64,000 bases of DNA from NCBI GenBank assembly GCA_037447655.1, contig JBBHKE010002683.1, positions 556,075-620,074 of the forward strand. The letters are read 5' to 3'. The translations under genes and the position numbers were made by a program. Positions within the stretch are counted from its first letter, which is position 1. Each line of letters starts with the position of its first letter. The stretch comes from Zygnema cylindricum. Taxonomy: Eukaryota; Streptophyta; Zygnematophyceae; Zygnematales; Zygnemataceae. This document shows, in pieces, positions 17,321 through 50,054 of the stretch. The notes below the pieces were generated by a model. The model was not told where the DNA came from. It was given only the letters and a program-made list of their open reading frames with translations, and searched no databases.

Positions 17321-18090
17321 GTTTCACGAGGGACCAACTCATGTGACTCGGAACCAAAAAATCATAAATAGTGTGCGTTATGTCAGACTTAGCTGAGGAA
17401 GGGAAAAGAGAGAGCTGAAAAGTTGTACCCCGGAGACAAGGTGAGGACTTAGATGTTGTGTGTTTAAATGGTGTATGCCCCCCTCTAGCCGATTGAGACA
17501 GATTGTTCTGTGCGTATCGACCAGCTGCAATTCCATGCCCAAGACAAATAAAAGTGAGTGAGGATCCATGACTTGACCAAGTAAGGTGCAGCGCTGCCGC
17601 TCGGTGAGTCTCGGGGAGGCAGTAGTGTCTAGAATGAAATGTAACAGATGTTCTCGTTCTGTGGTAGTAGGTTCTTCTAAGTTGTCTGTATGCGTATTGT
17701 GAAGCATGCCCGGTCCATTGTGAGAGTATGCTTGAGAAAGTGGATATGCAACGAGTGTAGGCAGTGCACGTAGTGGCTAACTGGGATGTTAAGACCAAAT
17801 GCAGGTGGATAGTCTGTCTGTATACATGTCGGGACCTTATGAAAAGGAAGAAGTGCATCGAAAATGAAGAGGTTAGGTGGTCGGACAGCGAGGTTCGCTT
17901 CTCGGAGCTGACCCATGTCCACCAGGTTAGTCCACTTCGTACAAACCCGGTGGGCCAACGAACCATGGCGTGCGGTATCGATGATTAACGGTGGTCCAAT
18001 CAATGATTCAATGCGCTTGTAATATGCGAGCGCCGTGGGTCGTGGATCATTAGAAGCTGCGATATTTTCTAGGATGTATCCGAAAGGACG
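17321..18090 (-). pseudogene. Truncated C5 DNA methyltransferase (motifs VI-X), joined to a Copia frame
   Basis: The minus strand reads RPFGYILENIA (motif VI), then IIDTARHGSLAHRVCTKWTN (motif VIII), a target-recognition region, then EPTTTEREHLLHF (motif IX-like) and TERQRCTLLGQVMDPHSLLF (motif X-like), ending IYDFLVPSHMSWSL. It is clearly homologous to 30680-31420 of the gypsy element at protein and DNA level. Motifs I-IV (cofactor site and catalytic Cys) are missing. A frameshift lies near 17700. The reading frame runs without a break from Copia-2 protease and pre-integrase into motif VI-VIII across the junction near 18090. A functional fusion is unlikely, because the catalytic half is absent. 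Confidence 0.8.
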
Positions 18091-19542
18091 ATCCAATTTC
18101 CTCAAACTATTATAATTGATATGGCCTAATCTTTTATGCCACAACTCATGTGAGTGCAAAACACCAGAGTACAGAACATCATTCTCCTTGGTATTAGCCA
18201 TATCCATGCGATACATCTTGCTACTATCTCTAGTACTTGTAACCGCAACTGTGCCATTTTTGCTAACAACCTGCCGACCATTTTTCAAATCAACCTCAAA
18301 GCCTTTACTCTCTACCAACGACGTAGAAAACAATTTTTTCTTAAAGTCAGGCACAAATAAGACATTGTGAAGAGTCCTTTCAATTGCTTTTCCTTCTACG
18401 TCAACTAGCAAGGACACATCACCCATAGCACGACTTTGGACACTCATTCCACAGGCATAATAAATATTTTTCTCCGGCGTAGCTTTCAGATTTTTGAAGA
18501 TGGCCTTGTTCCAACACATGTGGGCTGACGCTCCTGTATCCATTATCCATCCAAGGTCCTTCGCGTCCTCCATTGCTGCCGCCATAACGAATAGATCCGT
18601 GTTGTCCCCCTCAAAAAATGTCAGAGTCTCGTCCTGGAGTGATAAAGAGGCAGAAAACAGTGAATTTCCACGAGGTGTAGGCCTCGTGAAGCTTTTGTAA
18701 AACTGACTTTGTTGCCATCCCGGCCTGTATAAACCTGTATTGTTAGCTTGTTTAATTTTAGGACAGAATTTGTATCCGTGACCTCTCTCACTACAATAAT
18801 AACATGCATTGTTTGATTGTCTATTTCCACCTTGATTAAACTGTCTGAACTGGTTAAACTGATTACGTTGCTGATTAAATTGACCTTTCCTCCCAAAGTT
18901 TGAATTAAAAGCCTCTACTTGCTCAACATAGGGAATATTAGATGTAGCTTCCTCTTCTAGTAAAATATTGATGGTATATGGTAAAGTTCAGCTAGCTTTA
19001 TCTTTCTGTTTGAGCATGTCAGATGCTCCTTTCATACTACGAGGGAGACCCCTCATGAGCAATGCTGCCTGTTGAAATGGAGGAAACACCCCACCTGCAC
19101 AAGAATGTGCATCTACAACGATACGAAATTTTTTAGAATATTCAGCCATTGTACCGCCAGTGTTCTTATAGTCCCAAATTTTTCCAGCTAATAGAAGCTC
19201 TTCCTAGACATTAGCATTTTCATAATCACTTTTAAGGAAATTCCAGATATCAATTGTTTTTTTCATTTTTATCCGAGACATAGCTAAGTTTTCAGATATA
19301 CAAAATTTTAGAATAGAACGAGCTTGAGTATTTTTCTCAGACCATGACGGATCAGATTCATCCAGGGAACCATCCAATTTATCCAAAAGATTGACATTCT
19401 CAAAATGTGCCTCAACCATATCCGCCCAGTAAACATACTTATCCCCGGAAAAGATAGGAATTCTTGATGACAGGCCCATAACCTGTTTTTCTACAAACAC
19501 CGGTGCATGTGGAGGAGCAGCAGTAGTAGTAGAAGTAGACAT
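18091..19542 (-). pseudogene. Copia-2 gag-protease-preintegrase (truncated)
   Basis: It starts MSTSTTTAAPP at 19542. The gag part includes QVMGLSSRIPIFSGDKYVYW, a form also seen in Copia-1 (QVMGPPSRVPTFNGSGFIYW). A CCHC zinc knuckle (CYYCSERGHGYKFC) lies at about 18800, the aspartic protease motif MDTGASAHMC at about 18530, and the GAG-preintegrase motif LWHKRLGHINYNSL at about 18125. The gag part is broken by stops near 19203 and 19000. Integrase, reverse transcriptase and RNase H are missing: the element stops at the junction with the methyltransferase fragment. Confidence 0.85.
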
Positions 19543-21188: not shown

Positions 21189-22353
21189 ATGCCTAGAGTT
21201 CGAGGAGAGGAGTGGGACCTTGTGAAGCCTCCAAAAGGTGGGATCCTAGTAGCCAACAGATTATGTGTTTGTATTTACTGTAATTTTTATTTTATCGCCC
21301 AAGCAACTAGGATCAAAAATTATCTCACTGGAAATGTCAAGTGTGGAGGGATTAGAGCTTGCACAATGTGTCCAATCGAGGTGAAGGAGGAGTTTATCGT
21401 AGGTGACAACGAAAAATCAGCCAATTCCTCTAAGAAACCTGTGCTCAGTGACCTAGATGAACTCACGTGTATTTTTCCACTGACTCCAAGGACGAAAGCA
21501 AGAGTTGTTCAGACGAAAATACAATATGCATTCAGCATGCAAAACAAGAAGGAGGTAGATTTAGCTTAGGCCACGACTTTTTATACCAATATATTGCCGT
21601 TCAGACTTTTAGATGACCCGTATTTCAAGGTTGCGGTGAAGAAGACTGGTAATGATTACAAGTTACCAATCGGAGAAATCTTCTCCTATTGGAGACCAAG
21701 GCGAATGTGAAGAAGAATTTGTCAAGTTATGTGAAGAACATTGAAGTCACCGGTGCCACAATCACATCAGATGGGTGGACAGCAGTAGATGCTAGTCCTT
21801 TGCTAAATATTTTAGCTGTCACCCCGAAAGGTGACATGTTCTTGACGGTAGAGGACACTAGTGGACAAACGAAGGACGCCAACTACATTTGTGCGGTGTT
21901 GGAAAAGGGAATACTTGCGGTAGGGGTGGAGAATGTGGTGCAGGTAGTTACGGATTATGCCCTAGTGAACAAGGGTGCAACTTTGTTGCTCGTGGCAAAG
22001 CACCTTTCTATCACGTGGACGCCATGCGCTGCACATGTACTGGACTTGATGTTAGAAGATTGGAGTAGGTTGACCTTTAACTCCAAACTTGTCCGAGAGG
22101 CAAAAGAAATTTTGAGATTCATCACTAATCATAGCATGAGTGTAGCCATGTTTAATAAAATTTCAAAACTTTGGCTTCTCAAACCTGGAGAGACTAGGTT
22201 TGGTACTAATTTTATTATGCTCTAGGTGATATTAGATGTGCAAGAGAGTTTGGAGCGGTTGATGTTTGATGACAAATTCAAGGAATGGGTGGGCAAGCCA
22301 ATGTAGAAGATAGAGGGGCTAAAATTAGGTACTACATTCCGAGCACGGAGATT
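21189..22353 (+). pseudogene. hAT transposase, N-terminal part (BED finger and DUF659)
   Basis: It starts MPRVRGEEWDLVKPP at 21189. The BED-type zinc finger has C.YC at the VCIYCNF block and lacks perfect spacing afterwards. From about 21690, ATITSDGWTAVDASPLLNIL, KDANYICAVLEKGI, NVVQVVTDYA and WTPCAAHVLDLMLEDW are typical of DUF659 in plant hAT transposases. Stops at 21568, 21708 and 22224 and frame changes show it is dead. It ends at the Copia-1 insertion at 22353. Confidence 0.85.
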
Positions 22354-23386
22354 TGTTGAAATTAATAGATTTCTCGAGTATTTTCTAGGTTTAAATATGT
22401 TAGTATAAAAGGAAAAGAAAAGGACGGACAGCCTGCCTCCACCTCCTCTCTCTAGCCCCCATACTTGTTGTATTCACTGAAGGATAGAGAGGGTGGTTGA
22501 TCCATGGCTGCGTTACTTCAACAAGCAGTAACTTTTAGTAGGTTACTAAAAATATACCTGACGGACTCGTGATTTGATCCCGATACCTGCCGTTCGTCAA
22601 GTTGGTTGACATCGGTCAGCTTTATCCTATTAGACTAGGACCAATGCTAAATGTTATAGTATGTGATAGATATATATTTATTAAGGAGGGAACAAATTCA
22701 TTTTAACTGAAACTCTATATGGCATGCATAGATACAGTTTTATAAAGTACGAAGTACGATACTACTTTGAAACGGATACCGCGCATTTTGTTTTGACAAC
22801 GAAACAAATATCGCGCAAGGATTTATAACGGTTGAGATTACATTACGAGTCAAATCCAACGGCGCACATCATTGCCTAAATCCCGGAATAGTCACTTTTG
22901 CATTTAGTGACATGGCATAACCTGGAGCCACGTGGAGGGATAACATTTGGTCACGGGAATTTCGAGGAAAGTACATACGAGTGGAAAATGGACAAGCGTC
23001 CGCTTAATGGCCTTGTCGTACAAAGGTCGTACAAAAAGTACATTGGCAGTAGTACTTTTATGTACTGTACAATATTTTGATTGGTTCGTACAGTTAGTAG
23101 ATAGGGGTTGTGAGAGGGAGCTAGGACTTAGAAAAAATCTGGTCTTCTCTCTCTTTGACAGGTTGTATAAAATTGGCATTTTTGTCGGCTTATAACTTAT
23201 CAGCTAGTTGGCCGTTTTCAGTGATTCTTTTTGCTACGAACTCAAGGGAGTTGAAGCTGCACATAGGTGCATCCAAACTGTCATTTTGCCTTCCTAAACA
23301 GCAATGGTTGTGGCTTGAAGTGGGTTAGTTAAATACTATCTAGAGGCTTCCTGTATTTTGTGGTCCAATGGAGGCACAGAATTACA
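22354..23386 (+). repeat. Copia-1 5' LTR
   Basis: It is 1033 bp, TG...CA. It is collinear with 38128-40525 once the two insertions there are removed, with visible divergence. It contains an antisense polymerase III-like A/B box pair at about 22570-22637. Confidence 0.85.
22570..22637 (-). promoter_or_regulatory. tRNA-like A and B boxes within the Copia-1 5' LTR
   Basis: Minus strand: A-box-like TAGTCTAATAGG, then about 46 bp, then B-box-like GATCAAATCA. The same pair is in the 3' LTR, with a better B box (GATCAAATCC fits GWTCRANNCC). It may be a SINE-derived segment fixed in the LTR. Confidence 0.4.
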
Positions 23387-25217
23387 GGTTATGGGCCCAC
23401 CCTCTAGGGTGCCTACCTTCAATGGATCTGGGTTCATCTATTGGGAATCCATGATGATGGGAGCTTTGTGCGAAAAACTATACTGGGGTATCGTCAGTGG
23501 ACAAGTGAAACGTCCACCTTCGGGAACTCCACTAGGATTTGGAGGAGTAAGATTTCCTACAGCAACGGCTGCCTCAGTAGATGAGGCAGATGATAGGGAC
23601 AGCAATGTGTCCGAAAAGGGGAAAAGGAAGGAGACACTACTCATTCCTATAGCCAGAATACCGGGAGCGGCGACCGTGAAGACTGCGGAGAACGATACTC
23701 AAATGTGGGAGGATGTAAACATGGCTGCCAATAACTTCATCCTGAGGCACCTCACTCAAGCTTTCGCCACCCATCATCTTCACATTTACAAGGCCGAGGA
23801 GTTGTGGGTGAGTTTGGTGGAGATTTATAGAGCTGGAACAATCAGGAGCTCCAATTGGCTGAGCAAAAGCTAGTGAGTTACACTTACAAAGGAGGAAAGA
23901 TGTTAGATTATTGTAATGACCTTTATTGTTTCTATATCGAGATGGAAAGTGTCGGGTGGACAGGAACAATGAAAATGAAAGTTAACACCCATATCATGAA
24001 GTTACCAGATGAGTTCGAGAACATAGTCTACCGAGTACAGGAAATGTGTGATAGTTCATGGAAATGGAACACAGTGGTCAGGGTGATACTTGTGCAGGAA
24101 AACACAATGGAGATTAGGAGAGGAGGAAAGAGCATTCAAGCTTTAGCAACAGGAGGGGACCAATGGGGGAAGGACCGAAAGAAACCTTACAAAGGGGAAA
24201 GAGATCATTCTGGGGGACCGAGGCCCCCCAAGGGTCTTTGTCATTTTTGCAAAAAGCCGGGACACTTCATCGCAGATTGTGTCAAGTTGTCGGAGCTGAG
24301 GCTCAAAGAGAACTGTGGAGAGGGTTCTTCCGGAGGGAAAAAAAGGCACTTGTGGTTACAAAAGTGACAGGAGTAACCGAGGATGAGTCCTGTGAGGAGG
24401 ATGGGGAGCTTCTTTTTGACAAGAGTCTGGGGGAGAAGGAGATCCCTCGGAGACAGAAGTGTGCCCTTGGAGCAATTCGGGAAGCTCCACAGGAAGGATG
24501 GATTATCGACTCAGGTGCATCCATGCATATGTGTCGTGATAAAGAACTCTTCACTAAGCTAAGAAAGATCCCTACTGTAGAGAAAGAGTATGGGGATGGG
24601 AGAGTGGTTACTACAGATCTAGTGGGATCTGTAGATCTGAAAGTCTTAGTGGAGGGTAAGACTTCTATACTTACATTCTCAGATGTACTCTACATTCCTC
24701 AGCTGAGTAAAAATATTGTCTCTACGTCTGTGTTAGATGACAAGGAGTTTGATACCTTCACTAGGAAGGGAGTCTTTACAGGTAAATATGGGGATGAAGT
24801 TTACTTCACGGCAGATAAGGATAGCCAAGGAATGTTTAGGCTTAACCTGAGTAATGAAAAGAAAAATGCTTACTATGTTGGTGTTCCTTAGTTGATGATT
24901 TGGCATAAGCGGTTGGGGCATGTGCATTTTAATAGGTTGAGGGAAATGAAAAAGCTTTAGGTAGTAGAGAGCATTCAGTTTGGGAATAATGAAATGATGG
25001 ATGTTTATAGTGGTTGTGCTCAAGATAAGGCTCACAGACTTCCCTTTCCCAAAGCCGCCACATATAGAGGTGAGAAAATGTTAGATTTGGTCCACATAGA
25101 TATTTGGGGACCTGCAAAAGTACCTTCGGTTGGAGAAAAGAGGTTTGTGATGACAATAACCGATGACTAGTCTAGATAATCTAGAGTCTACTTTCTGAAA
25201 ACAAATTCTGAAGCATC
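23387..25217 (+). pseudogene. Copia-1 gag, protease and start of integrase
   Basis: The gag starts with a segment reading QVMGPPSRVPTFNGSGFIYW. Its ATG probably lies in the LTR end (ATGGAGGACACAGAATTGCA in the 3' LTR; one base is lost in the 5' LTR). The CCHC knuckle CHFCKKPGHFIADC is at about 24240, the protease motif IIDSGASMHMC at about 24503, the preintegrase motif WHKRLGHVHFNRL at about 24900, and the integrase start LDLVHIDIWGPAKVPSVGEK at about 25080. Frameshifts near 23860 and 24340 and stops at 24889, 24958, 25168 and 25177 break it. It is cut at 25217 by the gypsy element, after the codons for S-E-A. Confidence 0.85.
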
Positions 25218-26290
25218 TGTCATGCGGCATCTCATCCGCAATTCTAATTGTATATATTTAGGTGTTAGGACGGGAAACCGCCACACTACTTTATATTTGG
25301 GTGTATATGGGTTTTGCAGGGTCGTACATACTTATGTTGGCCGTAATTTCCGCCGACGACGAGTTCGACCTTACGACATACATCTCCCGTGATTTCCGTT
25401 GACGTTGGATTTCGTCATTTCACGTCGTCCGTATAATATATATTTTTGCGCAATTTTCGCCGACGGTGGATTTGATTATTTCGCGTCGACCGTACGACTT
25501 ACGTTGACCGAAATTCTCGCGGCCACAAATTGGACCGTACTTGCGTTCCTGCCGTACCTGCTTTTATCTCCCGCATTTTCCGTCGTCGACTCATATTTGA
25601 ATTCACGTCGGTGCAAATAATATTTTCGTACCACATCTATCTTTCGCGATTTCTGCTGACGGCTACTTGGTGATTTCACGTAAACCGTACGACTTACATT
25701 TTTTGGAATTTCCGCGACTACGAGTTGGACTGTACCCGCGATCCTACTGTACCTACTGTCATTTTCCGAAATCCCGGCCGACGAAAAATTTGAATCATTT
25801 CGCGTGAGAGGGCATCTCGACCGTCGACGCAACGTATACAATTTTTGTAATATCTCATCTGGACCGTTGATGCGAGTGACAGACAAATCGGCTTTCAGTT
25901 TTGACAAAGTGATATGATTGGACTATTTTATGTCGTGGACCATTTGGAGGTTCACGTTTTCACATGTAGATAGGAAGGGTTTTAATCCGTAGGTTATAGA
26001 TTTTGTAACGTAGGGCATAGGATTTCGGCCTCCTATTGGCTGAATCTAAACTAAACGCAAATACTTACATAGCACGCTGTAGTCTTATTGGCCTGTTTTC
26101 GCTAGGCGTATTTTTGGTTACTTAGTTCATTTTATATCATTTCGTGTACACAATTTTCAAGTGCAGGAATTATTCATTTTATTTATTTTCTGTATTGAGG
26201 ATTTTTTGCAGCCATCTTTTTATTTGTAAAATTGTCCGGACACCTTAGAGGCAATTTTCTGCCTTTGCGTGAAGCGTCTAGTTTTCCATT
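25218..26290 (+). repeat. Gypsy 5' LTR (about 1.07 kb visible)
   Basis: It starts TGTCATGCGGCATCTC and is collinear with 34479-35549 to the shared phrase GCGTCTAGTTTTCCATT. The last 63 bp of the 3' LTR are missing here, and no primer-binding site complementary to an initiator tRNA is recognisable after it. Confidence 0.8.
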
Positions 26291-27647
26291 ACATTATCAA
26301 TATCTTGTAAAGCCTTACAAATTAATTTATACGGCTTCGGCCAAGACCTACACTGTTTCCCTTAACTTTTCTCGTCCTTTTGAGTGGATTTCGAATGCGT
26401 TCTCACGACACAAACTTCTTTTCCCGGCTGTGGCTCAGCTTTTATTAGTGTGGAAGTTGCATGTTGGGATTATTGATTTATTGTTTTTATTTCTTGTGAT
26501 TTTGTATTTATTTCCATTTGCTTATGCGCATCTTTTGAGTTTGGCTATCTCAAACATCAAAAGTGTCGGGCATATTGTCATTTTCAGTTTGTTGTTTGTC
26601 TTTCTCGGTTGTTTATGCTTTGATTTGTTTTATTTCAGTATAAATTCAGATTATCCTTGATAAGATAACTCCTGCAAGGAATATAAATAGACCGTGGGGC
26701 CTAGTGGTCATCCATGGCTTAGTATTCCTGCACTTGAAAATTGTCGTATTTTCTTTTCTCGCTTGTTTGTTTTTATTTCAATTTCGGTTTTATTTTTATC
26801 TAAGAAAAAAAAATATTTAAAAAAAATAATCAAAAATATATCTTTATAGATAAATTTCTACAATAATCTATAACTAGCTTTTCATATATAATTACCATTT
26901 GCTTGTTGGTTGACATTTTATCTTATTGGCCAATTTTCGGCCAACGATATACTACGCTAACTTAAGTATTTGGTTTTTGTTTTTCCCATTTTCTTTGTTA
27001 TATATAGTGGGCATCGTTTGCTCATATTAAGACATACTTCACTAAGGAGTGGAGTTAGTGGAGCGGATCCGTTCTTGGGAGCTCTGCAAAACTTCGGTTG
27101 TAGCGAACAACCGGAGTTCACCTTTGGCAATCACCATATTGCTAAGAGTGTTATGTAAGTATCACGATGCCTTGCGGGTACAGACGCGTGCTAAGGTAGT
27201 CGGTTGATCGTATAAAGGGATCTTGTTTTGAGTGGATTATTGTTAATCCACTTGTATTGAGCATTGCATTTGTCCAACTTTCCCTGCTTGCTATCTGGCC
27301 CTGAGTGGCCTTGGCTGAGTTTGCTTTGCCTGGTGTGGGATTTCTTCCATAGATCTTGATGTTGGAGGAAGTGGTTAGCTCTTTTGTGGATTGTGCCGCT
27401 TTAGATCTGCACTTGGGAGTGCTTGGATAGAAAATTATTTGCCTTTATAGATCTAGCCGTTCATCCTTGTCCCCTTGTTTGCAGGGTAGAAGGTTTTGGT
27501 AATACGCCTTCTTGATAGATCTGGCCACCGAGGCCTTGTTAGAGGTTGTTTGCCTGCTTGGACAAGAGAGTGGTGTGGCTTGGCATTTGAAGCATATCGG
27601 ATAGATCGATTTTGTTATCTGGTCATCATTTGGTGTAATCATTTTTT
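26291..27647 (+). other. Gypsy leader region
   Basis: A T-rich 1.36-kb stretch between LTR and gag. An open frame (26232-26660) starts inside the LTR and has no domain. No primer-binding site recognised. Confidence 0.45.
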
Positions 27648-29093
27648 ATGCCCACCAATTGGGATAATCTCGATTATCTTGTCGGAACCACCCGATCATC
27701 GGCCTCGTTTAGGCCCACGGAATCCGGACCATCAGATTTATCTAGTCTTTTGGACCATCCTGTCCTAAATATCTCAGGTCAAATTTCCCCTTCGGTTCGA
27801 TCTACTCTCACCTCAGTATCTTCCTTATCATCAGTCTCTTCCACATTTTTCGAAGAGGAATTTGACCACGATTCCCTTAACGGGTCGGATTCCGATTCAT
27901 TATCTTTTTGGTTTCCACAAATTACAAATCCATTTTTATCCCCAAGCATTCCATTATTGGAAATGGCTTCCACATCCGAGGGAGGGGGGCGCCTTCATTT
28001 CTGTTTTTCAGGAATGAATGACACCATGACTTTATCGCATTTCCGAATGCTATTCGATACCGAAATGCGTGAACTTGCATTTCGGTACCAAGATCGGTTC
28101 GACCTACGGGTTGCTTTCTCTCCTTTAGGCCGTTGCCTCCGCGGTTCAGCCCTTACTCTATATTCCCGCAAGTATGATTACGTACTTGCGATGACGAAGT
28201 TTTCTCCAGCGTTTGCTGGGAGTCCTGCTATTATAAGACAACCAAAAATTCCCTATCAACCGGCTATCGCGGAAGTCCTTGATCTCAACGGCGATGTTAT
28301 TACAGCAACAATTGCAAAAATACCGCAACAATTTGCTATAGCCGCACGTGCTGGAATTCCAGCACGACCTGCGATGACAATCCCTATATTGGATCCGTTC
28401 TCTATCATGTTTGAAATGTTGCAAGCGGAATACTGTATGCAAAACCCTGACCAAGTTCGTGAGTTCATGAACTTCGAACGGAAGACAGCAGAGACCGCCC
28501 TTGCCATGCGTGCTCGCATGGAAGCTCTTCGTGAAGCATTGCCGGACTTTATGTCGGATGCTAAAGCTGTCCAGAAATTTGTAGGACAGTTTCCGAGTCA
28601 GTCTAAGAAATTTATCCAAAGTCACCTGATTGAAACGTACGGTTTGAATTTCACTTTCGACCAAGCCGCCCAGCATGCCGTGGAATACGAAATGCAAAAT
28701 TGTTGGTGGGAAGCCCATGACTGTCCTAAAGCGGTCCTGAAAGAACCGATTATTCCACCATGGAACAATCCTCGGCCTAATAACCGGCCTCCTAAAGTTC
28801 TAGCCATGGGATCCACACCTGTTGCTCCCGGAAACCGATTATGTTTCCGATGTGGGAAGACGGGGCAGGATGCCTGAATGTGTCCAGACAAAACTGCTAC
28901 CTGTACACATTGCAAGCAAACCGGACATTATGTCTATCGTTGTCATATAAAAAATCCAAAATATTCCTATCAGAACCAAATTAAGAGTGGTGGCATTCCA
29001 GCTCGATTTGCAAGACCGGTTCAACCGGTTAAAGAACCGGAGAAGGACACCACTCCACCTAAGGTATCTCAAAGAGAGAGAGAGAGCGTTTAG
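27648..29093 (+). pseudogene. Gypsy gag with double zinc knuckle
   Basis: The frame opens MPTNWDNLDYLV at 27648; MASTSEGGGRLHF at 27963 is an alternative start. The capsid-like part includes FERKTAETALAMRARMEALR and KFVGQFPSQSKKFIQSHLIE. Two CCHC knuckles follow. In the first (CFRCGKTGQDA) the His is Gln, and a TGA at 28875 replaces the next codon (probably Trp) before MC. The second is intact (CTHCKQTGHYVYRC). Only this TGA interrupts the frame up to 29093, where a frameshift falls in an AG microsatellite (29072-29086). Confidence 0.8.
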
Positions 29094-29107
29094 AAATACA
29101 AGAGCAA

Positions 29108-30130
29108 ATGGTGGCTATGATGAAAGAACAATTCGCAACCTTCATGACTCAAATGAAGCCACAATTTACAAGCATGGCTCGCACTGTTGTACACATGCCC
29201 ACGTTGGCAGGCCGAATCTTACGAGATTCCACCATCCAACAACGAGAGGCTACCTTCGACAAAGGTTCGACCGATCACAGCCGTGACGTTAAAACTCCTA
29301 ACACCCGCATTCCTTCGTCATTCACTAAAGAACCTTCTCCTCCCTTTCCCGAAACCGCTTCAGCCATCGTGGCTGAAGCTCTCAACATAGTGGATAAAAC
29401 TATAAATTAGGCACACCGCGTGAAGGAACGCTTGTGCATTCTATCCACTATGACTTCCGACTCACCGAAAATCTCCCCTATCTCCTTACCCTCCGATAGC
29501 TCAGCTGCAGCTGCTGCGTTACAAGCACTTCAGCTACACATAAATCTTGCTGCTATTCAGCCTATTTCCATAGAGGAGCGAAAGTTCCTCGATCCTCACA
29601 TCAGTTTATTGGATAACGGGAAGGGTGCATTGTTGATCAGTGGTATAGCCCCTTCCCTGCCTCTCATGGATACGGGTGCAAAGCCGGTGATATTGGGCTC
29701 TAGCTTTGCACTCAAGCTTGGTCTTACTCTGGACAAGCTTCAGTCCACTTCTACTCGGTTGTTAAAATCAGCGGGTACAACCGAGCCAATCCTAGGAATC
29801 ACTAGGGAACCTCTTGTTTTCAAGTTCCAAAACGGAACGGCCACAAACTTTGCTTAAATCTCGGTTCACGCTCTAGTCACTAAATGTAGTGACTACGAAT
29901 GCCTACTGGGACAGGACCTTATGTTTCGTGTAGGGGGTGGTGTTGACATGCATGATCAAACATTTTCTTATAGGCCCACTAACTTCTCGGAACGCAAAAT
30001 CTGCATTCCGCTAATTTCCCCTAGGAAGCCCATACCTATTATGGCGAATTCGGCCACATCCATACTTGCATTTTCAGGGAATTCGGTGGGGGCCGAAATA
30101 TATCATTTATTGTCAGCAGAAGAAATATGA
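29108..30130 (+). pseudogene. Gypsy spacer and aspartic protease
   Basis: After a coiled-coil-like QMVAMMKEQFATFMTQMKP segment, retropepsin-type LPLMDTGAKPVILGSSFALK is at about 29665, and the closing part CLLGQDLMFRVGGGVDMHD at about 29900. One frame is kept from 29108 to 30127 except for TAG at 29408 and TAA at 29855, both one C-to-T change from Gln codons. A frameshift lies between this and the methyltransferase. Confidence 0.8.
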
Positions 30131-30283
30131 CTCGGGTTTTCTTATAGATACGAAGGAATTTCACCGAATCTATAACCAAACCTTATCAATTCCACTTTCT
30201 CGGGTCTCTCCTACAATCTCAATCCCTACAGATTCTTCTGGGTTTCTTCCCATTAATTGGAATCCGGTCCAATTGAAATCTCA

Positions 30284-31430
30284 TCCCAACGGATTGGTGA
30301 TTTTGGACCTCTTCGCTCGAATAGGCACTTCCCTCTTGACATGTTTGCGGAATGGATTATTAATCTGATTTTATTATTCGGTTGAGATTGATCCATTAGC
30401 ACGGAAAGCACAATTACATCATTGTAATCTGTTGCATACCCAATACCCGCATTTGTAACCAAAATCTGCATACGAGCATATGCATACTGCTCTCTCACAA
30501 GACATCCGGATTGTGGGCAACCATCATTTACAGGATATTGGTCCAATCGATCTAGTTTTTGAGGGATGGGAGTGCCAGGGAATGTTTGGGGCCGGGAAAA
30601 GCCTCGGATTAGCCGATTCTTGCACCAAATTATTTTTTGAATTAGTTCGAATCCTGCATTTTCTACAAACTTTATATCATCCTATGGGGTATATCTTGGA
30701 AAATATCGCAACCTATAATGATGCAAGACCTACAGTCTTGAGTGATTATCAACGGATCGAACAATTAATTGGTCCGCCTCTTATTATTGACGCGGCTCGC
30801 CATGGTTCACTAGCACACCGGGTTTGCTCCAAATGGACGAACCTGATCGATATTAGTAGACTCCGTGAGGCCAACTTGTTAGTTCGTCCTCCTCCTATAG
30901 ACATTCAGGCTGCCCTTATTCCTTTTCATAAGGTGCAGCCTTGCATTCAAAAGAACTGTCCCCCTAATTTCAGTGTCAATGTCTTGCTTCCTACCTTAGT
31001 TTCTCACCCACATTCACATGCATTCTCTAATGACGGTCCTGGCATGCTCCGAAACATTCATACCCGTGAGCTTGAAGAGCCTACCTCTACGGAACGAGAA
31101 CACCTCATGCGTTTCTTTCCTGGCACTACGGGCGCTCTTGGTCTTACTGAACGTCAAAGATGCACTTTATTAGGTCCTGTCATGGACCCTCAGTCTCTGT
31201 CTTTTGTTTTAGGTCTTGGGTTTGCAGCTGATCGCCACTCTGAGGCACATCCGTCTCAACCACTTGGGGGGGGGGATGCATCACTAAGAAAATCTTTCCG
31301 TCCCACTCTCCAAGGGACCACATTTCAATTTTTCCTCTTTCCTTCTCCAATTCCACCAGTTCCGAAGATCTCTATCTACGATTTCCTCAATCCTGGCCAT
31401 ATGTCTTGGTCTATTCCTGCATACACGGCT
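30284..31430 (+). pseudogene. Retrotransposon-encoded C5 cytosine DNA methyltransferase (DNMT3/DRM-like)
   Basis: Motifs in order on one frame: I, GLVILDLFARIGTSLL (30291; the usual Gly is Arg here); II, YYSVEIDPLARKA; III, QDIRIVG..HLQDIGPIDLV; IV, GWECQGMFGAGKSLGLAD with the catalytic Cys codon at 30573-30575 (Glu where PCQ has Pro); VI, GYILENIA (30690); VIII, IIDAARHGSLAHRVCSKWTN (30783); IX-like, EPTSTEREHLMRF; X-like, LTERQRCTLLGPVMDPQSLS. The enzyme family transfers methyl from S-adenosylmethionine to C5 of cytosine in nuclear DNA. It lies between protease and reverse transcriptase. Stops at 30366 (TGA) and 30457 (TAA) break it. The motif set supports the family strongly; DNMT3/DRM subtype is inferred from the short motif IX/X arrangement. 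Confidence 0.9.
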
Positions 31431-33062
31431 GTCCAGTCTACAAGTCCCATGCATATTCCACCCACTCTTTATTGGAGTGTTGCTTTTCCAACACACAGTT
31501 GGAATCTTTCGGTTAATTGCCTTAAACAGACACCTGTATTTTACGAGTTAGGTCAAACGCTTATCGCAAATGAGCAGTTGGCCTTTGCACAAGCTATGGA
31601 AGCTATGACAACCGAAAATTTTGATGCTCTTAAATGGAAATTCGGCACCAACCTAACAAAGGCCGAACAAGAGTTACTGAATGACGTAGTTTTACAAAAT
31701 GTCAATGCCTTTGCCTTTTCTATGAATGATTTGGGTCGTCACACCGCTTATAAGATGTCAATAGATCTCGAAGATGACCGCCCGATATTTAAACCGAAAC
31801 ATCGTTTGTTAGAAAATTGAATGGGAAATGGTAGACAAGCGATGTGCTAAACTAGAGGAAGCTGGCCCAATCTATCGGTCAGACTCCACATTTGCAGTTC
31901 CCACTATCATGCCTCGGAAAAAGGATTCCGAGGGTAATTTTACTGAACGTCGAATGTGTGGTGACTATCGTGAACTAAATGCTAGAACGGTTCATGATCA
32001 TCATCCCATGCCTCTTGCTGAAGAAATATTTGATCATGTAGGCGGAGGAAAGTATTTTAGTATCATTGACCTCCGTCAAGGATTCAATCAAATTGAGATA
32101 GAGGAAAAAGACCGGCATAAAACTGCCTTTTGGGGTAGCGACGACCGATGGGAATGGGCCGTAATGCCATTCGGACTGAAAATTGCTCCAACAATATTTC
32201 AAAGAGTCATGGACTCCGTTCTTGGAGGTTGTAAGTTTGCTAGATGTTACATTGATGACCTCATCATTGCCTCGGCTACTATCGAAGAGCACGCTGCTCA
32301 CATCGAATGGGTATTGACTGAATTAAAAAAGGTCGGATTAAAATGTCATCCAGCGAAATGCCCTTTGGAGCCAGGGGAGTGCCTTACCTCGGCCATTTTA
32401 TCTCGGCTGAGGTGATCACTCCTCTCGAAGCAAAGGTAAAGGCAATCAGTAAATTGCGTGCTCCCACGGACCTCACAAGTATGTGAGCCTTTCTCGGACT
32501 TGCTAATTATTATCGTAGGTTTGTATCTAATTTTAGCACCATCGCATCTCCGTTAAACGACCTTCTCAAAAAGGAAGTGGCGTTTATATGGGGTCCCGAT
32601 CAGATTTCCGCATTTCAAAAATTTAAAACCGCTTTATCGAGTGCTCCAATTCTTCGTCCTCCCAATCACAAACTCCCTTTTTGTCTCCAAACAGATAATG
32701 GGAAACGCGGAATCGCTGCCATTTTGACACGAAGAGAGTTGAGCGGAGAGGAATACGTAGTTGCTTACGCGAGTAGAAGCAATAACCGGGCTGAATCAAA
32801 TTATAGTAGCTACGAAGGAGAGTGTCTAGCCGCGGTTTGGGGAGTCGTTCACTTCCGCCATTATTTGTACGGAAAACCTTTCACACTCCTAACTGACCAT
32901 CAGCCCTTACATTCGCTAATGACAAACGATAAGCTTTCCAAGAAGCTAGCCCGATGGGCTTTAATCTTACAAGAATATGACGTTGAAATAATTCACCGAC
33001 CAGGTCTACTTAGTCTAAACGCAGACGGCATTTCCCGAAATCCTTGCCCGAACAACAGATAA
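31431..33062 (+). pseudogene. Gypsy reverse transcriptase and RNase H
   Basis: The linker ends DRPIFKPKHRLLEN at 31820. After a one-base frameshift the reverse transcriptase runs from about 31805 (VDKRCAKLEEAGPIYRSDS, RMCGDYRELNARTVHDHHPM, FSIIDLRQGFNQIEI, MPFGLKIAPTIFQRVMD) to the catalytic CYIDDLIIAS at about 32245. A frameshift near 32390 leads to YLGHFISAEVITPLEAK and a TGA at 32485 (in place of Arg), then AFLGLANYYRRFVS. RNase H is at 32577-33062 (FCLQTDNGKRGIAAILTRR, YASRSNNRAESNYSSYEGEC, LTDHQPLHSLM). Confidence 0.9.
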
Positions 33063-34270
33063 CGGAGTTCGACAGGATTTCGATGACGACGATGTTCCCG
33101 TCATGTCAATGGGTTGTTATCTTACTTAGTGTCTGGCGTCTATTCCGAACCCCCGTCCCGCCACAGATCTTTGGCGTGACAGGCCTCTCATTCTTTTCCT
33201 ATCCTCCCAGACCTTTTCCCATCTCACGTAGAGGGAAACAATATATCATGATTATGATCGAAAATTTCAGTAAGTGGGTAGAGGTCGTAGCCTTGCCTCA
33301 CAAGACAGCTAAGTTAACCACCGCAGCTTTTAAGGAATATGTCCTTATGAGATACGGTGCCCCAGCCGAGGTCCTTACGGATCAAGGTACATAATTTCGG
33401 GGAGAGTTTCAAGAGATGCTTGATGAGGCTCTCATCGATCATCGTCGTATTAGTCGGGATCACCCCTAGGCCGATGGCCTGGCTGAACGGGCAGTCCAGA
33501 CATTTAAGCGTGCCTTGCGTAAGCATTGCTTAGAGAAACACATTTCAGTTTGGGATGAGTCCTTTGGTTACATTACCATGGGATATCGAATGTTAGTTCA
33601 CGCTAGTCTGACTAATTTCAGCCCGTATTATGTTTTATTTGGGCGACAACTGTTGCTCGGTTGCAATATTCATAAAGCTGCAAGCTTTCCACTTCCGCTA
33701 ATGTCTGACACTATCTTTTTGGAAGAACTAATTTGTCGTGCTTTGTTTTTTGCCCGTGAAATGCCCATGGCTTTTGATAACATGCAGATTGCCTAGCAAC
33801 GGGACACACTTCGGTTTGCCACCACTCGAAGCGGCAGTTACAGGCCGCGACACAAGCCCTATCGGGTGGGAGAATATGTTTATCTTCGCAGGCAATCTTT
33901 TGACACTTTGGACACTGATGTTTCTGCACACATCCTACGGATCATCGAGGTGGATCCGAATGGAATGTTAGGATAACAAGGAGCGGACACACGGACTTTT
34001 CGAGAGCACTCCAAGAATTGTGCTCCAGGTTATTTACCAGATTTGTCGCAAGATATGGAACCTATGCGGATGCTGATTCCGGAGGCGACGGCATGTACCT
34101 TTGGTCATCGATCAGACGGGGAAACTACCATGTTACTTTGTGATCTTTCTAATCAAGGGTTTCACTTGGAGTGTTTGGAGCCACCATTGTTGGCAGTTCC
34201 GGATGGTCACTGGTTTTGCCACGGATGTCGGGAGCTACCGGTCGTGTTGGCTAGCTCCTCTGCCAGCTAA
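33063..34270 (+). pseudogene. Gypsy integrase with C-terminal PHD finger
   Basis: The zinc-binding N-terminus of the integrase is missing: sequence jumps from RNase H to PFPISRRGKQYIMIMIENFS (33210). The core follows: SKWVEVVALPHKTAKLTTAA, RYGAPAEVLTDQGT, DHRRISRDHP, ADGLAERAVQTFKRAL, then YVLFGRQLLLGCNI. The C-terminal part VGEYVYLRRQSFDTLDTDV follows, then the PHD finger at 34094-34228. Stops at 33392, 33467, 33794 and 33976 are mostly TAA/TAG in place of Gln. The frame ends TAA at 34268-34270. Confidence 0.88.
34094..34228 (+). other. PHD finger at the integrase C-terminus
   Basis: The frame reads CTFGHRSDGETTMLLCD, then LSNQGFHLECLEPPLLAVP, then DGHWFCHGC. This is the PHD Cys4-His-Cys3 layout with two ligands replaced (Gly in CTFG, Ser in CDLS), each explainable by one base change from TGT. 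PHD fingers usually read histone H3 tails. The position equals that of the chromodomain in chromoviruses, suggesting a targeting module. Confidence 0.82.
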
Positions 34271-34413
34271 AGAGCTGGGGGGGGGGGATAAACCGACATA
34301 ATCATAACCAGCTAAGTCGTTGACCTTTCATTTTCTACCTTGCCTATTGTTATATTTATTCATTTTTCTTTCTCATGTCTTAATTCATTCACAAAATATT
34401 TTTATCATTTGGG

Positions 34414-34476
34414 TTTAAGTGGATCGCCCCTGATGATATCGCATGCATCTTCACGTTATTTGACACATGCACGACA
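34414..34476 (+). repeat. 63-bp segment repeated at the end of the gypsy 3' LTR
   Basis: TTTAAGTGGATC to CACATGCACGACA here is repeated with few differences at 35550-35612. It looks like an LTR 3' end joined directly to an LTR start (TATCATGCCGC at 34479). Confidence 0.7.
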
Positions 34477-34478
34477 GC

Positions 34479-35612
34479 TATCATGCCGCATCTCGTCGGC
34501 AATTCTAATTGTTTATATTTAGATGTTAGGACGGGCAGCCGCCACACTAATTTATATTTGGGTGTATATGGGTTTTTCAGTGCCCTACATACTAACGTCG
34601 GCCGTAATTTCCGCCGAAAGCGAGTTCGACCCTACAACATACATCTCCCGTGATTTCCGTTGACGGAGGATTTCGTCATTTCACGTCGTCCATACAATAT
34701 ATATTTTGCGCGATTTTTGCTGACGATGGATTTGATTATTTAGCGTCGACCGTACCACTTACGTTGACCGAAATTCTCGCGGCCACAAATTGGACCGTAC
34801 CTGCGGTCCTGCCTTACCTGCTTTTATCTCCCGGATTTTCCGCCGACGACTCATATTTGAATTCACGTCGGTGCAAATAATCTTTTCGTACCACATCTAT
34901 CTTTCGCGATTTCCGCCGACGGCTACTTTGGTGATTTCACGTAAACCGTACGACTTACATTTTTTGGAATTTCCGCGACTACGAGTTGGACTGTACCCGC
35001 GGTCCTACCGTACCTACTGTCATTTTCCAAAATCCCGGCCGACGAAAAATTTGAATCATTTCGCGTGAGGGGGCATCTCGACCGTCGACGCAACGTATAC
35101 AATTTTTGTAATATCTCATCTGGACCGTTGATGCGAGTGACAGACAAATCGGCTTTCAGTTTTGACAAAGTGACATGATTGGACTATTTTAAGTCGTGGA
35201 CCATTTGGAGGTTCACGCATTCACATGTAGATAGGAATGGTTTTAATCCGTAGGTTATAGATTTTGTAACGTAGGGCAAAGGATTTCGGCCTCCTATTGG
35301 CTGAATCCAAACTAGACGCAAATACTTACATAGCACACTGTACTCTGATTGGCCTGTTTTCGCTAGGCGTAGTTTTGGTTACTTAGTTCATTTTAGATCA
35401 TTTCCTGTACACAATTTTCAAGTGCAGGAATTATTCATTTTATTTATTTTCAGTATTGAGGATTTTTTGCAGCCATCTTTTTATTTGTAAAATTGTCCGG
35501 ACAGCTTAAAGGCAATTTTCTGCCTTTGCGTGAAGCGTCTAGTTTTCCATTTAAGTGGATCACAACTGATGATATCACATGCATCTTCACGTTATTTGAC
35601 ACATGCACGACA
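34479..35612 (+). repeat. Gypsy 3' LTR
   Basis: It starts TATCATGCCGCATCTC (5' LTR: TGTCATGCGG) and ends GCACGACA, then runs into the restored Copia-1 integrase frame. Confidence 0.8.
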
Positions 35613-38115
35613 GATCAACTTACTTCAAAGAATATAAAGCATGGAGTGAGAAGTTGCATGAAACCCCCATTAAGAGGATAAGGAGTGATAATGCGAGGGA
35701 ATATACCTCTAACCAGTTTGAGGAAAATATGAGAGATAAAGGAGTGCAACACCAGAACATTTTACCATATAACCCTGAACAAAATGGGGTAGCTGAGAGG
35801 TTGAATCGAACACTAGGAGACAGTGCATGCAGTATGTTGGCAGACAAGAAAATAAGAAAGAGATTTTGGGCAGAAGCAATGAAGTGTGCCAACTACATTA
35901 AGAATAGAGTCCTTACCTCAGCTGTAAAGGGAATGACACCTTATGAGAGATGGGTTGGAACGAAACCAAATATCTCACACCTTAAAGTATTCGGTAGCCA
36001 AGTTTACAGTCTTGACACGGATAGGAAAAACTGGAAACTAGATGCTAAAGGAAAACCTGGATACTTTGTGGGATTTGATGAGGATGTTAAGGGATATAGA
36101 GTCTATGACTTAGCAAAGAAAGATATCATTCTGTCAAACACTTAGTTGTCATGGATGAAGGGAAGTCATTTGACCACTTCAAATATACAAAGAAGATAAG
36201 AATCATATTTGAGTCCGAAAGTGAGTAGAACTCGGTCGTTCCCGAAAGCGACATGAGTGAAACCGTGATTGTACATTCAGGGGAGATCCAAGATACAGGA
36301 GACTCACCAGAAACCTCACATACTCCTATGGACTTCGAGGAGATAGGAGAAGCGGGAAAAGAACCTACTTCTATGGACACGGGAGCCGATGAGACAATGA
36401 GAAGAAATCCAAGACTTCCATCCATTCCAGCTTCGGAGTTTGAGGGAGGAAAGAGGAGCAGCAAAAGAATACAGGAAAAACAAGCTGCTCATAAGGTAAC
36501 TAAGCTATCTCACCCAGATGAGACTCAATCTTACTCGGAGGCAGTGAATAGTCCAGAGAAAAAAAGATGGATTAGAGCCATAAATGATGAGATGGCTTCT
36601 ATCATGGAAGCAAATACTTGGGAACTAGCAGATTGTCCTCTAGACAGAAAACCTATTGGGTGTCAATGGGTATTTAAACTAAAACTGAACCTAGATAACA
36701 CCATTGAGAGATATCAAGCTCGATTGGTAGCGAAGGGTTTCACCCAAAAGGAGGGGATTGACTTTGAGGAGACCTTTGCTCCAGTTGTTCAGTTCCCATC
36801 AGTAAGGATTCTCCTCAGTCTAGCAGCAGCGGAAGACATGGAAATACACCAGATGGACATTAAGACTGCTTTTCTTAATGGTGAGTTAGAGGAAGAAATT
36901 TTCATAAGACAACCCGAGGGGTTCGTGGAAGAAGGAGAAGAGATCAAAGTATGCAGGCTCATAAAGTCCTTATATGGAATGAAGCAGGCTCATCGACAGT
37001 GAAATAAAAAACTAGATGAGTTTCTTACCGGTCTCGCATATATCCGTATCAGCTTTGACCATTCTATCTATATGTTTGAAGATGAGAATGGTGTCATTTT
37101 TATTGCAATTTATGTGGATGATCTGCTTGTGTTGAGTAAACCTTTGGAAAATATCAATAAGTTAAAGAGAGATCTTAGAAGCAAATTTGATATGAAGAAT
37201 TTTGGGGAGGCAAGATATATTTTGAGGATTCAAATGGAGAGAGATAGGGGGAAGAAGATTATCAGACTTACTCAAAAAGAAGCAATAGGTAATATGTTTG
37301 AGAAATTCCAGATGGAAAATGCTAACAGTTGTACCACTCCCATGGACTTGAATAAAGTAAGTAAAGGGAGTGTAGAAGAAGGAGTGATGATCTTAGATGA
37401 TCAGATGAGTCCACAGGAGAGAGAGTTTATGAAGTCTATCCCTTATAGACAGGTCGTAGGAAGTTTAATCTATTTTATGAACTGTACCAGGTCAGACATA
37501 GCGGCAGCAGTTGGAGTACTCAGTAGGAGTCTTAATGATCCTAGAAAGAGAGATTGGGAGGCAGCCAAGAGAGTCATGAGATATCTGGTGGGAACTAGAG
37601 AGTTATGGTTGCATTTGGGAGGGGAGCACACTGACATCACTACTTGGAGTGATGCCAATTATGGGAACGCACCTATGAGAAGATGCACTTTTGGGTATGT
37701 GTTGTATGTTGGGGATGATGCATGCTGTTGGAGCAGTAAGCAACAAAAGGTGGCTGCTCAGTCTACTATGGAGGTTGAGTACATGGCCTCTTGTTCTGCT
37801 GTGAAAGAGTTGATGTGGGTCAAATCCTTGCTGCAAGAACTGAAATATATATGAAGGAGGGAGTGCATGAAGTGTTTTGTGATAATTAAGCTGCCATTGC
37901 AATTGTAGCTAATCCAAAACATCATTTTAAAGCTAAGCATATGGACATAAGATTGAGTTTTGTGAGGGAAAAAGTTGAGAACAAGATTGTGAGTCTTGTG
38001 TATAGATCTGATGAGGAAATGGTGGCTGATATGATGACAAAACCAGTGCCCTCTCCAAAATTGAAATATTGTAGAGAAAAATGTGGACTAAAACTGAAGG
38101 TAAAATTAGACTAGA
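35613..38115 (+). pseudogene. Copia-1 integrase end, reverse transcriptase and RNase H
   Basis: The frame resumes STYFKEYKAWSEKLHETPIK, then the integrase core (IRSDNAREYTS, PYNPEQNGVAERLNRTL). The reverse transcriptase runs from about 36500 (WVFKLKLN, YQARLVAKGFTQKEGIDF, TAFLNGELEEEIFIRQPEGF, SLYGMKQA) with the catalytic YVDD in FIAIYVDDLLVLS at about 37110. RNase H follows (GYVLYVGDDACCWSSKQQKV, then ADMMTKPVP near 38030). Stops at 36145, 36226, 37000 (TGA for the Trp after RQ), 37852 and 37888. A purine-rich tract just before 38128 is the likely polypurine primer. Confidence 0.88.
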
Positions 38116-38344
38116 AAATAAGAGGAGTGTTAAAATTAATAGATTTCTACAGTATTTTATAGGTTTAAATATGTTAGGATAAAAGGAAAAGAAAAGGACG
38201 GACAACTTGCCTCCACCTCCTCTCTCTTGCCCCCAAACTTGTTGTAGTCACTGAACGATAGAGAGGGTGGTTGATCCATGGCTGCCTTAGTTCAGAAAGC
38301 AGTTATTTTAAGTAGGTTACTAAAAATATACCCTGACGGACCCA

Positions 38345-38412
38345 GGATTTGATCTCGGTACCTACCGTTCGTCAAGTTGGCCAATAGCGGTCAGCTTTAT
38401 CCCATTAGACTA
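38345..38412 (-). promoter_or_regulatory. tRNA-like A and B boxes within the Copia-1 3' LTR
   Basis: Minus strand TAGTCTAATGGG (A-box-like) and GATCAAATCC (exact fit to GWTCRANNCC) lie about 46 bp apart, at the same LTR position as 22570-22637. Confidence 0.45.
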
Positions 38413-38432
38413 GGACCAATGCAAAATGATAT

Positions 38433-38678
38433 TGTTAGAATTGGCGATTTTCAACTTATCGCAAAGGCGCCAAAGTGTTAACTTTGGAAAATGGCCAAGC
38501 CGGGGTTCAAACCCGGGACCTGTGTGAACCGTACACTAGCTCTACCAACCGAGCTACCCAACCAATGTGTACGCAAGCGCCTAATACCGAATTTATACGG
38601 CGATTTAGCGGCGCACTGGCGAACCTGCTTACAGCGTGATACACACATGTGGAGTCCAAGGTGGACAGTTCTCCAACA
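38433..38678 (-). mobile_element. 246-bp TG...CA insertion carrying a tRNA-like sequence
   Basis: It begins TGTTAGAATTGG and ends CTCCAACA. GATAT flanks it on both sides (38428-38432 and 38679-38683), and the undisturbed 5' LTR confirms the empty site. Short inverted TG/CA ends and a 5-bp duplication are what an integrase-inserted solo LTR or tiny LTR element leaves. A tRNA-derived SINE is the alternative, but the TG/CA ends and fixed 5-bp duplication fit less well. Strand is given by the tRNA-like part. Confidence 0.7.
38492..38563 (-). tRNA. tRNA-Thr(GGT)-like cloverleaf inside the 246-bp insertion
   Basis: The 72 nt fold fully: acceptor GGTTGGG with CTTGGCC (7 pairs counting G-T), TA, D arm GCTC-GGTTGGTA-GAGC, anticodon arm AGTGT-ACGGTTC-ACACA (4 of 5 pairs, anticodon GGT), 4-nt variable loop, T arm CCGGG-TTTGAAC-CCCGG, discriminator A. 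Loop position 33 is C rather than T and position 37 is T, both unusual, so a working decoding tRNA is doubtful. A box TAGCTCGGTTGG and a B-box-like GGTTTGAACCC are present. It lies in a mobile insertion, not a host locus. Confidence 0.6.
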
Positions 38679-38851
38679 GATATGGTATGTGATAGATATA
38701 TATTTTTTAAGGAGGGAACAAATTCATTTAACTGAAACTCTATACGGCATGCATAGATAACGTTTTATAAAGTACGAAGTACGATACTACTTTGAAACGG
38801 ATATCGCGCATTTTGTTTCGACAGCGAAACAAATATCGCGCAAGTATTTAT

Positions 38852-39960
38852 TGTTTTTTTGAAAAGTTTGTTTTGTGCGTACGCGATAGTTTGTGCGCCA
38901 TGGAATTCAATGTGGAGGTTCGAATGGATTCATGGATTGGGGGAGCGAACAAACGGATATAATTTAAGTGATGAAACAGACTCATTGAGTGGCGTGTACA
39001 AGCATTGACAAAAGGACACCGGATCGCGAAGCGATCCGATGTGGAATAAACGAAATGTTGAAACACGCACCGCCGTTACGGCGCAGTTGCAATGCAGACA
39101 GGACAACGGAGCTATGGTAATTTTGGATGAATATGCGCCGCCGATACAGAGCAACTGCGACACAGACAAGTCAACGCAGCTGCGGTTACCTTGATATGAT
39201 CCGTACGGAAAAAGCAGCTGACGCAGCTGCGAATAATATAACTAGTATAGATTGTGAGTAATGATATGTGTTTAGTGGTTACTTAGTGGTAGCTTGGTTT
39301 TTGACGTACGAAGATTGTGGAGATGTCGGTGTAAATATTATGTACAACACAGGTTTGTCTTTTTGCTAGTTTGTTTATCAATGTAGATCTGTTCAGTCTA
39401 ACATACCTCGAACTATTCGGGTATACTTACAATAGTTTAGGTAGATGGTAGATAGCGTACGGCTTGTATGCCTCTGTACATTCAGTAGTGAACACTCTGA
39501 GTATAGCTTGTAGGACTTATAATATTTGGAGTATCACATTCATATTTATCAAAGTTATGGCAAACTGTTTTCTGCATCTTTGACCTGTTGGTGTGATCAC
39601 TCCGTTTATTGTTTTCATGTGATACTTTTTGAAGCTATTCTATGGTATAGAATCTGTATGTGTGCGAAGTTTCAGTCTATTTTGTTATGTGTGTAAGATT
39701 CTTTGAGAAGTCAAAGTGGTTAGTTTGTAAAGCTGTCAGCTGTTTTTGGGAAACTCTGAAGCTTATATCTTCCAAGTTCCTTGGTAGATTTGGCTCTCAC
39801 TTTGGGAGTTTATAGTGTCTATAGCATACTGCATATTGGAGCAGTTCGAGGGGATTTTGTTTATTGTGGAGCAATCTGTGCTGTCTGAAACACAGCTGTT
39901 TGAGGGTAGTCTGTGGTGCTTCCGAGAGTAGTCCATGGCTGAAATAGGCTATGGACAACA
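38852..39960 (+). mobile_element. Solo LTR inserted in the Copia-1 3' LTR
   Basis: It begins TGTTTTTTTGAAAAG and ends ATGGACAACA. TTTAT is duplicated at 38847-38851 and 39961-39965, and the 5' LTR shows the uninterrupted site. The interior resembles the Copia-2 leader at 19545-20209 in phrases (GCAGCTGCG, GATATGATCCGTACGG). No internal coding. Confidence 0.8.
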
Positions 39961-40530
39961 TTTATAATGGCTGAGATTGCATTACGAGTCAAATCCAACG
40001 GCCCACATCACTGCCAAAATCCCGGAATAGTCACTTTGGCATTTAGTGACGTGGCATAATCTGGCGCCAAGTTGCGAGATAACATTCGGTCACGGAAATT
40101 TCGAGGATCGTACGGACGAGTGGAAAATAAACACGCCTCCGCTTAATGGCCTTGTCGTACAAAGGTCATACAAAAAGTACATCGGCAGTAGTACTTTTAT
40201 GTAATGTACAGTATTCTGATTGGTTCGTACAGTTAGTAGATAGGGGTTGTGAGAGGGAGCTAGGACTTAGAAAAAATATGGTCTTCTCTCTCTTTGAGAG
40301 GTTGTATAAAATTGGCATTTTTGCCGGCTTATAACTTATCGGCTCGTTGGCCGTTTTCAGTGATTCTTTTAGCTACGGACTCAAAGGAGTCCAGGCTGCA
40401 CAAGAGTGCGGTCAAACTGTCATTTTGCCTTCCTTAACAGCAGTGGTTGTGGCTTGAGTGGGTTAGTTAAATACTTTCAAGAGGCTTCCTGTATTCTGTG
40501 GTCCAATGGAGGACACAGAATTGCAAGATT

Positions 40531-48160: not shown

Positions 48161-48162
<2 letters not shown>

Positions 48163-48250
<88 letters not shown>
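48163..48250. repeat. (TA)n microsatellite
   Basis: An uninterrupted AT dinucleotide run of about 85 bp. Confidence 0.95.
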
Positions 48251-48255
<5 letters not shown>

Positions 48256-50042: not shown

Positions 50043-50054
50043 TAGTTCAAAACA

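Follow-up and report, generated by a model that had tools for sequence, protein, structure and literature searches.

Known methyltransferase-bearing retroelements

Hosts commonly use cytosine methylation to fight retrotransposons. Retroelements that themselves encode C5 cytosine DNA methyltransferases (MTases) have been described, the closest to the present case being KnitGypsy-Dnmt3 of Klebsormidium nitens, which combines Gypsy domains and DIRS-like repeats with a Dnmt3 encoded in Pol (de Mendoza et al. 2018, PMC5890265). The same paper describes two Symbiodinium elements with C5 MTases, SymbioDIRS-Dnmt3 and SymbioLINE-Dnmt, and such elements are cited in an opinion paper of 2019 (PMC6338049) and in a survey of 2025 (PMC12344493). 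The subject here is a family of MTase-bearing Ty3/gypsy elements in Zygnema cylindricum, of which one copy lies in a stretch of 64,000 nucleotides from contig JBBHKE010002683.1 (positions 556,075 to 620,074, forward strand), hereafter the window. The copy in the window is dead, but the family has been active recently, and younger copies with open frames are found elsewhere in the genome.

KnitGypsy-Dnmt3 and the Zygnema family share Gypsy domains of the long terminal repeat (LTR) type and repeats as in DIRS elements (Fig. 4 legend of PMC5890265); in both, an unrearranged Dnmt3 lies within the Pol frame and is under purifying selection. The likeness is one to the paper's text and not to its sequence. 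The charophyte precedent named in the original prediction holds. The words PHD, protease, and target site are absent from that paper's text, whereas the Zygnema family has all three. K. nitens is reported to contain fewer copies than Symbiodinium, while MTase matches occur at no fewer than 95 places in Zygnema. SymbioDIRS-Dnmt3 shares the repeat layout A-coding-B-A-B with the Zygnema family; the Symbiodinium elements, however, use a tyrosine recombinase or LINE machinery, in contrast to the rve integrase, H2C2 domain, and 4-bp target duplications found here. A Phalaenopsis Gypsy element with an N6-methyladenosine (m6A) demethylase (PMC9289625) is likewise a Ty3/gypsy element with an acquired nucleic-acid methylation enzyme, but that enzyme strips methyl groups from RNA and is encoded in a separate open reading frame (ORF), whereas the Zygnema MTase lies inside the polyprotein. 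The literature search found no report of a wide group of relatives, of a PHD finger on such elements, of an MTase ahead of the reverse transcriptase (RT), or of 4-bp duplications beside split repeats. As far as the literature was searched, these four points appear to be new, while DNMT3-bearing gypsy elements with DIRS-like repeats were known.

The family in the Zygnema genome

The genome (352.8 Mb, 2689 contigs) was searched with the MTase ORF, yielding at least 99 matching rows at at least 95 places, some of them partial and one being the window itself. The number of places is a lower bound, as 95 of 1897 first-look candidates were scored. Thirty loci including the window were examined, not all of them independent, since L015/L016 and L025/L026 are near-identical by their motif rows. 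The MTase lies ahead of RT in all 30, and a protease is also visible before it in 26. The order gag-protease-MTase-RT given in the original prediction holds. The search for intact copies proposed there was also rewarded. Copy C1344 stays open for 2395 codons in total, counted over three separately read stretches of 501 (461 when counted from the first Met), 1452, and 442 codons, and contains CCHC, protease (weak), DNA_methylase (1e-11), RVT_1, RNase H, H2C2, rve, and PHD, in this order. The RT-RNase H of an open copy has a match at 7e-80 to a chain with the name Ty3-G Gag-Pol. The Ty3-like RT and the order RT-RNase H-integrase support the assignment of the family's pol to the Ty3/gypsy lineage, as had been proposed for the window. 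By its sequence, the family encodes a single polyprotein composed of gag, protease, DNMT3-like MTase, RT, RNase H, integrase, and PHD finger.

The explanation judged best as a whole, and held with moderate confidence, is that of a family in which the MTase of this polyprotein would mark the element's own cDNA, the PHD finger would contribute to targeting, and an internal repeat junction would template the ends. A rival origin, in which a host DNMT3 or the MTase of another element merely fell into a gypsy element and is decaying there, would agree with the stops and frameshifts of the window copy and with a second MTase fragment fused to a Copia ORF (see below). It is nonetheless highly improbable, given the same MTase position in 30/30 loci, the open frame of 2395 codons, and the purifying selection described below.

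The methyltransferase domain

The original prediction placed the MTase motifs in the right order in one frame. A motif search of the translation confirmed their places and order, with motifs I to IX/X in a single frame within window positions 30080-31820; that frame is not intact, as it is broken by two stop codons after motif I and before motif IV, so the window copy cannot make the MTase. The domain (defined by motifs, Pfam, PDB, and family profile) and the motifs within it (defined by motif search) are as follows.

30300..31240, + strand: C5 cytosine methyltransferase domain, DNMT3-like, two internal stop codons
30303-30329, + strand: motif I, LDLFARIGT
30381-30407, + strand: motif II, VEIDPLARK
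30564-30584, + strand: catalytic motif IV, GWECQGM, with Glu for Pro
30690-30710, + strand: motif VI, YILENIA
30813-30842, + strand: motif VIII, AHRVCSKWTN
31092-31118 and 31167-31187, + strand: motifs IX/X, EREHLMRFF and LLGPVMD

Pfam DNA_methylase matches the ORF 30480-31820 with an E-value of 1.8e-4 and 21.5 bits, 0.5 bit short of the cut-off of 22. The best PDB match of the window MTase is DNMT3A (5.6e-7), and a hidden Markov model (HMM) built from the MTases of 38 relatives recovers the same ORF at 5.4e-62 among the 2053 six-frame ORFs of the window. A lack of significant C5 MTase matches, named beforehand as the outcome that would count against the identification, did not occur. Motif I, the Cys of motif IV, the Glu of motif VI, and motifs VIII, IX, and X follow each other as in PF00145. 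Motifs and matches thus support the retroelement-borne domain as a C5 cytosine DNA MTase. It appears DNMT3-like and unrearranged, since its best matches are DNMT3A/B and its motifs follow the linear order and lack the permutation of DRM.

Motif VIII of the window copy reads HRVC, with Cys at the usual place of Arg. The 29 other loci carry Arg in 25 cases, Cys in two (L020, L037), and Pro and Gly in one each, and Arg is present in all 63 relatives (of 89) in which the motif pattern was found. The prevalence of Arg marks this Cys as damage or a minor variant.

Proposed role, selection, and CpG traces

In the preferred explanation, the protease would free the MTase in the particle or leave it joined to RT. 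The MTase may then methylate cytosines, by analogy those in CpG, of the new cDNA before or at integration. A new copy would thus enter the genome pre-marked, and its cDNA would be hidden from host attack on bare DNA. A family with its own enzyme of the de novo type, selected and recently mobile, makes the purpose of self-methylation testable.

Selection on the MTase was assessed from nonsynonymous and synonymous divergence (dN, dS) in 9 of the 30 loci. In comparisons between subfamilies, synonymous changes have reached saturation or dS exceeds 3.6, while dN is 0.11-0.19 for the MTase and 0.03-0.05 for RT. These values support purifying selection on the MTase as judged from the coding sequences.

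Several observations weigh against self-methylation of DNA by a constrained enzyme. Glu before the catalytic Cys is a departure from the PCQ motif; the original prediction singled it out as noteworthy, and its presence in 30/30 loci (motif rows, window included) identifies ECQ as a fixed family trait and not as damage. The dN of the MTase exceeds that of RT about fourfold, dN/dS of the MTase reaches 0.5-1.2 on few changes within the young group L027/L029/L034/L036, L034 and L036 show no synonymous change in the MTase, and L010/L011 give 0.39. Constraint on the MTase is accordingly weaker than that on RT, or lapses in young copies. There is no clear CpG depletion, with observed/expected ratios (o/e) of 0.84-0.93 in six loci, and of 0.87 inside the window element and 1.71 in its A1. 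In the differences between repeats A1 and A2, the odds of a CpG transition are 1.6-fold those at other C/G sites (64/672 vs 79/1282, p 0.008), but this excess is carried by one copy, C449 (33/147 vs 23/288), and C1811 shows the opposite trend (14/186 vs 39/398). By CpG content and A1/A2 differences, resident copies bear little sign of heavy CpG methylation. Finally, KnitGypsy-Dnmt3 gave no methylation in a yeast test, which its authors regard as inconclusive (PMC5890265).

The fixed Glu and the weak CpG trace would also suit an MTase that acts on RNA, either genomic RNA or its primer, or whose sole role in the polyprotein is to bind DNA/RNA or to give structure, its catalysis altered by Glu. 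RNA methylation is raised by de Mendoza et al. for the LINE type (PMC5890265). Against such a role, the catalytic Cys is kept in 28/30 loci, open copies retain motif VI as ENI/ENV and motif VIII as HRVR, and the fold is nearest to DNA-bound DNMT3. Moreover, 50 of the 71 relatives readable at motif IV have Pro, so the wider family looks catalytic. An RNA or structural role is therefore considered rather unlikely.

Alternatively, the MTase could serve self-restraint or the host, with faster silencing of new copies and selection acting via host fitness. De Mendoza et al. name this as one possibility, and Klebsormidium shows CHH and CHG methylation on silent KnitGypsy-Dnmt3 copies (PMC5890265). 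The many places with MTase matches and the recent insertions in Zygnema are unlike strong restraint, which makes this role improbable. Marking of the element's own cDNA remains the preferred reading.

Anatomy, split repeats, and target sites

The window element and its parts are listed below.

25218..35612, + strand: whole element, Ty3/gypsy pol plus MTase, decayed, inside a Copia element (termini TGTCATGC...GCACGACA, repeats, domains)
25214..25217, + strand: left target-site duplication CATC; right copy GATC at 35613-35616, 3/4 match (sequence)
25218..26283, + strand: repeat A1, at least this far, 94% identity to A2, Kimura two-parameter distance 0.059
27648..29090, + strand: gag with two CCHC-like knuckles and one internal stop (matches GAG part of other copies)
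29411..29854, + strand: aspartic protease, LPLMDTGAK (weak Pfam match, E 0.0028)
31241..31820, + strand: linker between MTase and RT, in the MTase frame, frame lost at its end (frame comparison)
31828..32412, + strand: reverse transcriptase (RVT_1, 2e-28)
32487..33062, + strand: RNase H (RT_RNaseH, 1.7e-34)
33200..33973, + strand: integrase core in broken pieces (rve, 5.4e-7)
34094..34228, + strand: PHD finger at the polyprotein end (PF00628, 6.7e-9)
34271..34287, + strand: polypurine-tract-like AGAGCTGGGGG run, immediately upstream of B1 in the four other copies examined
34414..34476, + strand: repeat B1, the part repeating here, followed by GC and A2 (94% to B2)
34479..35550, + strand: repeat A2 (repeat comparison)
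35551..35612, + strand: repeat B2, shortened in the window copy (repeat comparison)

The window copy is dead, with frame shifts at the protease/MTase and MTase/RT boundaries and stops in gag, RT-RNase H, and integrase. Its integrase pieces gave no H2C2 match when scanned with Pfam.

The repeat layout was examined in five copies, namely the window copy and four of the 29 other loci. All five show A-coding-B-A-B, in which A1 opens the element and B1, A2, and B2 close it, and in all five GCACGACA-GC-T(G/A)TCATGC stands between B1 and A2. Repeat B measures 186-243 bp in other copies. Target duplications of 4 bp agree in 4/4 bases in the two youngest copies and in 3/4 in the other three, including the window. 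The A1/A2 distances are 0.000, 0.008, 0.059 (window), 0.065, and 0.141, and recent insertions can be read from the sequences.

Since these ends differ from the two equal end LTRs of an ordinary LTR element, the element is filed by its pol only. An ordinary primer-binding site was not seen, as no TGG occurs within 40 bases after A1 in the two copies checked. The split direct repeats are those of DIRS elements. No tyrosine recombinase appears in the Pfam listing of the three stretches of the open copy, which has H2C2, rve, and PHD instead. DIRS retrotransposons are not known to make a target-site duplication, in contrast to the copies described here. The combination of split repeats and integrase-type duplications blurs the boundary between LTR and DIRS elements.

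In the four other copies, the purine run adjoining B1 lies at the expected start of the plus strand, from which reverse transcription of the LTR type would give B-A ends. In inserted copies, by contrast, A stands first and B last, and some step through joined ends thus seems to be needed. The internal B1-GC-A2 junction may store both joined ends and template the restoration of ends lost from the RNA.

Relatives and the position of the methyltransferase

A search with the window ORF returned one relative, and a search with a two-row alignment returned 89 including that one. Among these, 85 are Gypsy-MTase proteins, mostly metagenomic, with Cymbomonas tetramitiformis and Scenedesmus sp. as the only named sources, while P0086-P0089 are distant MTases. 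Their homologous MTase shows 28-44% identity in the 82 matched, and RT, RNase H, and integrase accompany it. The MTase follows RNase H in 19/19 and RT in 6/6 relatives showing both, and precedes integrase in 37/37. A second comparison, with the C1344 protein, placed RT before the MTase in seven relatives and was ambiguous for P0084. The relatives therefore differ from the Zygnema family, in which the MTase lies ahead of RT. The literature search found no paper on this group of Gypsy-MTase proteins. The window ORF has no relative in IMG/VR; with the family alignments, short MTase matches turned up on one viral contig and on six bacterial contigs.

A tree was calculated from 38 of the 89 relatives (most of the domain spanned), P0081, P0086-P0089, one DNMT3A, and five of nine open Zygnema copies. 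The Zygnema MTases group in a clade of their own (100/98) next to the 38 relatives, together with P0081 (93/88). The tree contains no DRM, DNMT1, or CMT, the single DNMT3A sits on a long branch, and long branches make the deeper placements unsure. Probably the element passed on its MTase by descent, with a change of its place within pol; two separate captures from related DNMT3s are possible.

The PHD finger of the window is matched behind the integrase in 22 relatives (among P0003-P0050), and seems to be a shared trait older than the change of MTase place. Attached to the integrase, it may recognise a histone tail at the site of insertion. Counts of transcription regulators in algal genomes may be inflated by PHD fingers of such elements. 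In Zygnema cf. cylindricum SAG 698-1a, whose genome consists of 73.3% repeats, PHD proteins are at least 9-fold more numerous than in other strains (PMC9915684), and PHD-bearing retroelements could be the cause.

A broader proposal is put forward tentatively, with somewhat less than even confidence. One ancient DNMT3-gypsy lineage would exist in green algae and streptophytes, its MTase having moved within pol at least once, in place of a one-off capture in Klebsormidium. Copying would be hybrid, with ends derived from the internal B-GC-A junction in a DIRS-like manner, insertion by the rve integrase with 4-bp duplications, and cDNA self-methylated beforehand.

Neighbouring features

The following second MTase fragment was detected with the family HMM over the window ORFs and by repeat comparison.

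17328..18105, - strand: second MTase fragment, motifs VI-X

A Copia gag/protease/gag_pre-integrase ORF (17680-18987, - strand) runs in frame into the first part of this fragment, which also has Cys at the Arg place of motif VIII. Compared with the window MTase over 250 codons, the proportions of synonymous (pS) and nonsynonymous (pN) differences are 0.76 and 0.25. Positions 17328-18987 (- strand) are either a chimeric element or a captured piece, and nested insertion may apply to this Copia-fused fragment.

The window element is itself nested in a Copia element, as seen from the Copia domains that flank it left and right and from repeats at 22354-23374 and 38128-40512. A search for named relatives with a piece of Copia sequence gave two weak hits. 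The interrupted element comprises 22354-25217 and 35617-40512, with extra DNA on its 3' side at about 38436-38680 and 38852-39959. The former contains a stretch that looks tRNA-like by eye, while ARAGORN lists no tRNA. An ORF at 21656-22222 (+ strand) matches DUF659 (2.9e-34), as in hAT-type transposases. CpG is over-represented at 41000-58000 (o/e 1.42 at 36% G+C), and the Copia coding parts show 0.3-0.4. Positions 58000-62000 form a block of 54-56% G+C, compared with 40% for the window, and contain CT-/GA-rich low-complexity sequence.
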